NCBI RefSeq assembly: GCF_019733395.1
Contig: NZ_JAIHOO010000001.1
Coordinates: 4,697,394-4,761,393 of the forward strand
Origin: Lysobacter sp. BMK333-48F3
Lineage (GTDB): Bacteria > Pseudomonadota > Gammaproteobacteria > Xanthomonadales > Xanthomonadaceae
DNA: 64,000 bases
Direction: 5' to 3'
The notes beneath the pieces are model-generated. The model was not told the origin of the DNA and ran no database searches. It saw only the letters and a program-made list of their open reading frames with translations. This document shows, one piece after another, positions 5,337 through 6,130 of this stretch. Numbering within the stretch: position 1 is the stretch's first letter; each line of letters starts with the position of its first letter. The translations under genes were made by a program, and so were the position numbers.

Positions 5337-6130
5337 GTTGTTGTTGTTGTTGTTGCCGTTGCCGTTGCCGTTGCCGTTGCCGTTGCCGTTGCCGTTGCCG
5401 TAAAGAGCTTGGCGTCGCCACGAACTCGCGAGAAGACCTGAAGCCCCGAAGGGCGGCCCGCAGGGATGCGGGCCGTGCGCAGCCAGGCCAGGGATGGCCT
5501 GTGCGGAGCAGCCCCGCGCAGACCTCGTCCCATAGTGGCTCTTGATTCGAAACAGCCATGGCGTTTTCTTTGGTTACTTTCTTTGTCGCCTTGGACAAAG
5601 AAAGTGACCCGGCCGCTTGCGGACGGAAGCTTTGGCCTTTGGAGCTTCCGAAGCCTTCGAACGACAAACGCCGCGAGACCGCAGTAGCGCGGTCGCGGCT
5701 TGCGCCGCTCCTACATGAGGCCCAGGACAAAGACGCAGCGAACGGGCGAGATCGCGGTCGCGGCTCACGCCGCTCCTACATGGGGCGCAGGACAAAGACG
5801 CGGCGAACGGGCGAGATGGTGGTCGCGGCTTGTGACCGAAGGAAATCCCTGTGGGGCGCCGCTCCTACATGGGGCCCAGGACAAAGACGCAGCAAACGGG
5901 CGAGATGGCGGTCGCGGCTTGTGACCAAAGGAAATCCCTGTGGGGCGCCGCTCCTACAGGGGGCCCAGGACAAAGACGCAGCGAACGGGCGAGATGGCGG
6001 TCGCGGCTTGCGCCGCTCCTGCAGGCGATGGCTTTGAGCTTCGATCGATGGCGTCGGCCTTGGATCTTCTGCGCGTCCCGTGGTCGCGGCTTGTGACCGA
6101 AGGAAATCCCTGTGGGGCGCCGCTCCTGCA
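5337..6130 (+). repeat. Composite repeat, copy A: GTTGCC array, double GGA hairpins, long stem, REP cluster
   Basis: The gene-free 5179-6490 interval holds this composite. Order: GTT x5 and GTTGCC x8 (5337-5399); a small hairpin with loop CGAA (5443-5454); hairpin 1, arms GGCCCGC/GCGGGCC, loop AGGGAT (5455-5474); hairpin 2, arms CAGGCC/GGCCTG, loop AGGGAT (5484-5501); a 16-bp stem GGTTACTTTCTTTGTC with loop GCCTTG and one G-T wobble (5572-5609). Six REP units follow: short 25-nt forms at 5691-5715, 5756-5780 and 5998-6022; long 49-nt forms at 5821-5869, 5910-5958 and 6082-6130. Related composites lie at 12781, 22803, 59002 and 59559. No credible protein is encoded. Confidence 0.85.

Follow-up and report, generated by a model that had tools for sequence, protein, structure and literature searches.

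Results

A repeat with paired GGA-loop hairpins

The window, by which we mean the whole stretch of 64,000 nt analysed here (C1:4697394-4761393 of a 5.23-Mb Lysobacter genome, G000), contains five verified copies (A to E) of an interspersed repeat, all on the plus strand, together with the csrA/rsmA gene. The copies start, either at a small hairpin or at the first main hairpin (H1), at 5443, 12843, about 22866, 59100 and 59645. The features are as follows:

5443..5454, plus strand: copy A, small upstream hairpin, loop CGAA
5455..5474, plus strand: copy A, H1, loop AGGGAT at 5462-5467
5484..5501, plus strand: copy A, second main hairpin (H2), loop AGGGAT at 5490-5495
5450..5514, plus strand: copy A, match to RF01731 model positions 44-113, 27.8 bits
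5572..5609, plus strand: copy A, tail palindrome GGTTACTTTCTTTG / CAAAGAAAGTGACC
12843..12901, plus strand: copy B; small hairpin 12843-12854, H1 12855-12874 (ATGGAT), H2 12884-12901 (AGGGAT)
22876..22894, plus strand: copy C, H1, loop AGGAC, stem sequence different from the other copies
22915..22940, plus strand: copy C, H2, loop AGGGAT in ACAGGGATGT, 10-bp stem different from the other copies
50867..51070, minus strand: csrA/rsmA, 67 aa, contains HREEIYQRI, PF02599
59100..59158, plus strand: copy D; small hairpin 59100-59111, H1 59112-59131 (ATGGAT, swapped stem pair), H2 59141-59158
59645..59703, plus strand: copy E; small hairpin 59645-59656, H1 59657-59676 (AGGGAT), H2 59686-59703

Two neighbouring hairpins with A(N)GGA loops are present in all five copies, as the initial annotation of this DNA had proposed, and its readings of arms and loops were borne out as well: in copy A the arms GGCCCGC and GCGGGCC form H1 and CAGGCC and GGCCTG form H2, both around AGGGAT; the H1 loop is AGGGAT in A and E, ATGGAT in B and D and AGGAC in C, and the H2 loop is AGGGAT throughout. 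From GGA to GGA the distance is 43 nt in copy C and 28 nt in each of the other four. The stems of copy C have diverged from those of the other window copies with GGA retained in both loops, and its H1 loop, having five bases, is without the N. A stretch of this copy had been described as a near-match to the high-affinity core of CsrA sites, and ACAGGGATGT fits ACARGGAUGU at every base, the reported selected motif being RUACARGGAUGU (PMC3791407). The csrA gene lies where it had been placed (50867-51070) and gives the one match to PF02599 in the whole genome.

A third hairpin with a CGGA loop, noted previously just upstream in B, D and E, is indeed found there but is not conserved genome-wide, its loop reading CGGA in 25 and CGAA in 20 of 45 copies; CGAA is the form of copy A, and copy C also has a GGA at this position. 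The small upstream hairpin shows zero compensatory changes in the 15-sequence alignment described below. With a variable loop and no covariation it was rejected as a conserved part of the repeat, and it probably stands outside the conserved core. Ahead of the repeat lies a TTGCCG hexamer microsatellite, at window positions 5343-5400, about 58990-59045 and 59540-59590, and at least two GTTGCY units lie upstream of 39 of the 45 genome copies. The window holds two further tandem arrays, at 44872-45156 (units of about 68-70 nt) and 48753-49110 (units of about 119 nt).

Chance expectation and folding

Hairpins combining an A(N)GGA loop with five perfect pairs occur ten times on both strands of the 64 kb, solely at the five copies. 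A wider sample of 700 kb drew on fixed positions in five genomes, namely 20 stretches of 15 kb from G000, the genome holding the window, and five of 20 kb each from G101, G065, G105 and G012. In this sample 7 ANGGAT hexaloop hairpins of at least 6 pairs were observed, where the mean stem rate predicts 0.53. Five of them are repeat copies of G000, with copy C included because one sampled stretch falls within the window, and G065 and G012 contribute one each; there were none in the G101 or G105 stretches. Of the 68 occurrences of CANGGATG in the same sample, 9 are borne on stems of at least 6 pairs, G-U pairs included, the control figure for nine altered words, summed, being 17 of 846; one altered word also covers CAGGGATG.

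Folding of the 77-nt stretches from copies A, B, D and E is only moderately better than that of shuffled sequences (z -1.55 to -2.15), a modest value explained by their very high G+C, and the 95-nt stretch of copy C reaches z -4.76. In the minimum-energy folds a pair between the first and sixth loop bases turns the hexaloop into a tetraloop, and both hairpins are enclosed in C and E only, of the five copies.

Copies in the genome and constraint on the loops

Copies were retrieved from their own genome by a loop-blind procedure using a 25-mer of the tail with up to 3 mismatches, within which lies the right half of the copy A tail palindrome. The 25-mer was found at 47 places genome-wide, 45 of them exact, and the hairpin pair is present at 45 of the 47, L167 and L168 consisting of the tail alone. 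The H1 loops of these 45 copies are AGGGAT (28), ATGGAT (9), AAGGAT (6), ACGGAT (1) and AGGGAC (1), and the H2 loops AGGGAT (33), ATGGAT (9), AAGGAT (2) and AGGGAC (1). A1, G3, G4 and A5 are invariant in all 90 loops; position 2 is never missing and takes four bases in H1 and three in H2 (G in 63 of the 90 loops, a pyrimidine in 19), and position 6 is T in 88 and C in 2. Every one of the 90 ANGGAY hexaloops sits directly on its stem, with C and G as the flanking bases, and in two copies a pair lower in the H1 stem is broken. Among the 53 positions of the hairpin region, the four most variable are both loop N and both partners of one H1 pair, which is C-G in 32 copies, G-C in 11 and broken in 2.

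Conservation of the GGA loops above their stems had been set as a test of the CsrA reading. H1 behaves in this way, the core being fixed while one stem pair swaps, but in H2 neither core nor stem changes, and within this genome the H2 loop is thus no more conserved than its stem. The own-genome copies are young and near-alike, and since the loop is part of the search pattern for other genera, unbiased loop conservation is a measure from the own genome only. According to the published account of RsmE, strong binding keeps the A-N-GGA core and has a loop position 2 that is variable but required (PMC4005645); judged by their sequences, the loop-blind copies obey this rule.

Ten of the 45 copies (L129, L130, L132, L135, L140, L144, L148, L154, L156 and L165) have the module GACCGAAGGAAATCCCGTGGGAC within their tail palindrome, and a near-identical stretch lies inside neighbouring REPs. 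The H2 pattern was found in four contigs of Lysobacter antibioticus HS124, the sole record listed, a list from which the records closest to the genome of the window may have been omitted.

In the copies with an ATGGAT loop a GGAGG precedes the ATG, and the repeat could be imagined as part of a small protein-coding gene with ATGGATG in H1 as its start. We find this hardly credible: the plus frames of the 137-nt stretch are open in 14, 0 and 0 of the 45 copies, and the two variable loop positions, with 28 nt between them, cannot each fall on the third base of a codon in a single frame. Of the minus frames, two are free of stops in all 45 copies and the third in 30, as is often the case in G+C-rich DNA. 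A coding function was rejected, no plus-strand frame being open in all 45 copies.

Relatives and covariation of the stems

Two CANGGATG at a short distance from each other were found in 105 of the 119 genomes of the family, the own genome counted; a reversed control pattern gave 17 matches, in 14 of the 119. In the class the paired pattern is found in 264 of 370 genomes, many of these matches looking like chance or coding ones, and the genomes with numerous matches carry interspersed elements whose stems are genome-specific. Several other families have a T-shaped form, with a long inverted repeat around H1, a short linker and H2 (L172 in G371, L185 and L193 in G327, L197 in G176). At three loci of other Xanthomonadaceae (L102, L103 and L105) the hairpin pair is repeated in tandem, with 3 to 5 units of 110-117 nt per array, and each array might possibly be a dedicated sponge locus.

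The relatives' pairs at loci L031-L060, L102-L121, L170-L199 and L204-L229 were distilled from 141 to 94 distinct ones. With chance pairs retained and kinship ignored, H1 has at least 5 pairs in 58 of the 94 versus a shuffled mean of 6.1 (maximum 16, 1000 shuffles), and H2 at least 3 pairs in 79 versus 22.0 (maximum 34, 1000 shuffles). A MAFFT layout alignment of 15 elements from seven genomes, including locus L175 from G380, contains changes on both sides at 10 of 17 pairs, with 6 of the 7 H1 pairs and 4 of the 6 H2 pairs changed in this way. Its covariation score is 0.368 versus 0.090 for shuffled alignments, none of the 500 reaching the observed score, and no more than 0.108 for slid ones; copy C is misaligned in H1 by MAFFT, which mostly costs paired cells. 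As far as these alignments go, the stems covary within and between genera.

Occurrence together with csrA

Of the 370 genomes sampled from the class, 324 carry csrA. At least 10 matches to the paired motif were counted in 46 of the 324 csrA genomes and in 0 of the 46 genomes without csrA (p 0.0014, kinship ignored), and the association keeps a p of 0.0145, kinship again ignored, once the csrA-less genomes below 2 Mb are removed; the csrA-less maximum is 9 paired matches (G314). The paired pattern also catches coding and chance matches, and both the 46 genomes with at least 10 matches and 26 csrA-less genomes were tallied by eye from tables.

Comparison with Rfam

At gathering thresholds the whole window yields tRNAs only. 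With relaxed thresholds, TwoAYGGAY (RF01731) was the best of 4227 families for positions 5200-5700, with 27.8 bits and E 0.031 for the stretch. This score of copy A lies below the gathering cut-off of 43 bits, membership at the Rfam cut-off was rejected, and the Lysobacter repeat is thus a variant under the bar of the family. The relatives L111 (38.9 bits), L113 (34.8) and L121 (31.7) are all under the cut-off too, and L172, from another family, reaches it with 43.1 bits; it was the sole RF01731 match in gathering scans of 12 Xanthomonadaceae loci and of 12 and 20 loci of relatives (L185 in two sets). The AYGGAY loop itself is only partly reproduced, with a pyrimidine at position 2 in 19 of 90 loops and A, GGA and the final pyrimidine in 90 of 90. 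The closing stem of RF01731 appears as a short one in the Rfam alignment of copy A and, in minimum-energy folds, around the pair in C and E only. RF01731 shares the Rfam clan CL00106 with RsmY and rsmX.

Ysr224 (RF02770), a Yersinia sRNA listed among the most prevalent annotated sRNAs (PMC9029176), aligns opposite the GGA strand below its cut-off of 70 bits at L193 (47), L197 (24), L118 (20.9) and L177 (19.7), the best match being L193:1486-1591 on the minus strand, in a T-shaped relative.

Genomic context and polarity

Gene contexts were derived from a simple codon-usage gene caller trained on G000, not from annotation. The 47 places fall into 26 convergent, 20 tandem and 1 divergent gaps; as a few of them share a gap, the contexts are not fully independent. 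The corresponding baseline of 100 gaps of at least 200 nt, which takes in the window and a 15-kb stretch lying inside it, has 20, 57 and 23. The convergent excess and divergent deficit fit an element of 3' ends. The repeat is in this respect enriched 3' of genes and in convergent gaps as REPs are reported to be (PMC3733652), and might simply be a passive RNA element, a terminator or stabiliser for which folding alone is needed and the loop sequence is incidental. We judge this improbable, given that TTTT is absent within 18 nt 3' of H2 in 45 of 45 copies, that loop identity is held at the bases read by CsrA and that in relatives, where the loop is the search pattern, an identical loop stands on unlike stems. 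An intrinsic terminator in particular was rejected, the G+C stem having no T-run in any of the 45 copies. Around copy A a simple consensus found no sigma-70-like promoter site in 5179-6400.

With regard to strand, the own-genome tandem contexts have the GGA strand antisense in 15 cases and sense in 5, and 16 of the 47 places are without a co-directional upstream gene. For 54 elements at chosen loci of other Xanthomonadaceae (H1 of at least 5 pairs, H2 of at least 3), the gene upstream runs in the direction of the GGA strand in 39, against it in 12 and in an unknown direction in 3, and the tandem contexts are sense in 18 and antisense in 5 (p 0.011). The counts in these relatives favour an action in cis only, in which each copy would control its own neighbour, for example by letting CsrA influence how stable the upstream mRNA is, and titration would play no part. 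There is a reported parallel in RsmA, which aids the stability of XC1332 (comEA) mRNA and is required for its 3'-UTR sRNA RsmU (PMC7694677). The 16 own-genome places just mentioned do not fit such a role, and we regard it as possible though doubtful.

At 43 of the 47 places (p 3e-9), and at 42 of the 45 with hairpins, the GGA strand runs against the replication fork; by cluster (n=43), 40 are wholly of this polarity, 2 wholly not and 1 mixed. Replication direction was taken from dnaA at 1617577 and a dif-like site at 4208110, since noise in the GC skew of the 20 samples prevented the origin from being located. In 300 kb of the own genome neither the REPs of the neighbouring type (10 to 9) nor the genes (131 leading, 114 lagging) have a replication bias. 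Elsewhere the polarity is weak or absent, with 22/31 in G065, 6/9 in G101, 7/12 in G105 and 22/56 in G335 (length 4.98 Mb), counted after exclusion of two coding-like or other-type matches in G101 and with the tandem arrays of G105 taken as one. A general tie of such elements to replication direction was rejected, strong polarity being confined to the own genome.

The antisense excess of 15 versus 5 counts against a CsrA decoy, as does the fork-linked direction at 43 of 47 places, which points to a DNA-level process. The lack of a promoter-like site around copy A, its Rfam score under the cut-off and the Ysr224 alignments opposite GGA also weigh against a decoy. On grounds of direction the repeat could be a mobile element acting as DNA, REP-like or single-strand transposon-like, the hairpins of which would serve a nuclease or transposase on ssDNA at forks, the resemblance to CsrA loops being coincidental or secondary. 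The contrast with the unbiased REPs and genes would be accounted for in this manner, as would the exact tail 25-mer at 45 of 47 places and the REP-like palindrome (loose pattern) within 250 nt downstream of 44 of the 45 copies. Nevertheless, we consider it rather doubtful: the polarity fades in the four other genomes, an H1 pair that swaps beside a fixed A, GG and A and a free N reveals a tolerance not predicted by ssDNA cutting, and the single genomic Y1_Tnp match (32 bits, cut-off 23) does not adjoin the listed copies. We infer a recent DNA-level burst of spread in the own genome, laid over an older RNA-level function.

Discussion

In the present study we propose that the Lysobacter repeat is a dispersed, multi-copy candidate CsrA/RsmA decoy, a high-copy TwoAYGGAY-like variant with paired docking hairpins, which would be transcribed, bind CsrA and titrate it; taken as a whole, we hold this proposal to be somewhat better than even. 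The reading of the loops as CsrA/RsmA sites, made in the initial annotation, is well supported by sequence evolution, as indicated by A-N-GGA-Y in 90 of 90 loop-blind loops, by covarying stems and by TwoAYGGAY as the best family. On the GGA strand each loop would offer ANGGAY directly upon a stem closed by C-G, and the 28-nt spacing of the GGA motifs in four of the copies (43 nt in C) could suit a single CsrA dimer. The copies lie mostly 3' of genes, chiefly between convergent ones, where the sites would become accessible in RNA produced by read-through or, at some copies, by antisense transcription. Together, about 45 copies would bind CsrA, leading either to its titration or to CsrA held on the 3' end of transcripts. 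We regard a sponge or 3'-UTR mechanism of this kind as a well-founded hypothesis.

About 45 copies with 90 well-formed sites make a plausible CsrA reservoir, and the loop-blind copies can be read as mutagenesis carried out by nature, with an outcome that matches the RsmE binding rule. Homologues of CsrB, CsrC, RsmV, RsmW, RsmX, RsmY and RsmZ are stated to be absent from every sequenced Xanthomonas genome (PMC7694677). Dispersed repeats, often seen as REP-like filler, would in this manner be linked to a global regulator. More speculatively, and with an unlikely outcome in mind, CsrA might be buffered in Xanthomonadaceae and many other gammaproteobacteria, besides a few sponge genes, by genome-wide selfish or semi-selfish repeats with paired docking hairpins, in which stems and outer palindromes would be lineage-specific, the loop would be held by the protein and, in this Lysobacter, the spread would be tied to fork direction. 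The activity of CsrA would then vary with the set of transcribed 3' ends that bear the repeat.

A titles-level search of the open-licence PMC literature returned no publication that describes, for these bacteria, an interspersed repeat bound by CsrA. TAACTGA repeats of Beggiatoaceae are reported to have been weighed as CsrA sites and judged unlikely for want of GGA (PMC4679880), and ordinary CsrB-like sRNAs are described for Alteromonas (PMC5864184).

Among the known systems, RsmX/RsmY/RsmZ and CsrB/CsrC are dedicated sRNA genes with their own promoter and terminator. They resemble the repeat in having several ANGGA hairpins, and RsmY and rsmX belong to the clan of its best match; they differ in the promoter and terminator, which were not found around copy A. 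Xanthomonas campestris is related to the source bacterium at the family level. Its RsmU is described as a 3'-UTR-derived RsmA-binding sRNA (PMC7694677) and shares with the repeat, compared by description, GGA motifs in an RNA 3' of a gene; however, RsmU is a single locus reported to be limited to Xanthomonas, whereas the Lysobacter element is a many-copy repeat whose RNA is putative. Replacement of the four GGA motifs of RsmU is reported to have altered the complex without abolishing RsmA binding or the phenotype (PMC7694677), and a GGA in a predicted loop therefore does not settle function. In Pseudomonas putida, intergenic repeats linked to ISPpu8, one of them a long palindromic region, are reported as recovered with RsmA, RsmE and RsmI (PMC7937890). 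Again by description, these too are repeated intergenic stretches pulled down with Rsm proteins, and a common structure may be taken as a lead only. The GTAG REPs associated with RAYT are palindromic, interspersed and located 3' of genes (PMC3733652), and GTAG-ended REP-like palindromes adjoin copies of the repeat; the hairpin pair differs from them in being without the GTAG foot and in keeping its loops, and the neighbouring REPs are separate from it.

The closest resemblance is to TwoAYGGAY, which has the same adjacent pair of GGA-loop hairpins and the core of whose model is matched by copy A, the Lysobacter repeat differing in its roughly 45 near-identical interspersed copies with a shared tail. 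In 2010 TwoAYGGAY was rated as probably RNA and probably not cis-regulatory (PMC2864571), and in 2015 sequestration of CsrA was predicted, with validation described as in progress (PMC4333381). The kind is accordingly already known as a prediction, that TwoAYGGAY binds CsrA, for which the present data provide evolutionary support, and on sequence likeness, not membership, TwoAYGGAY is the nearest name for the repeat.
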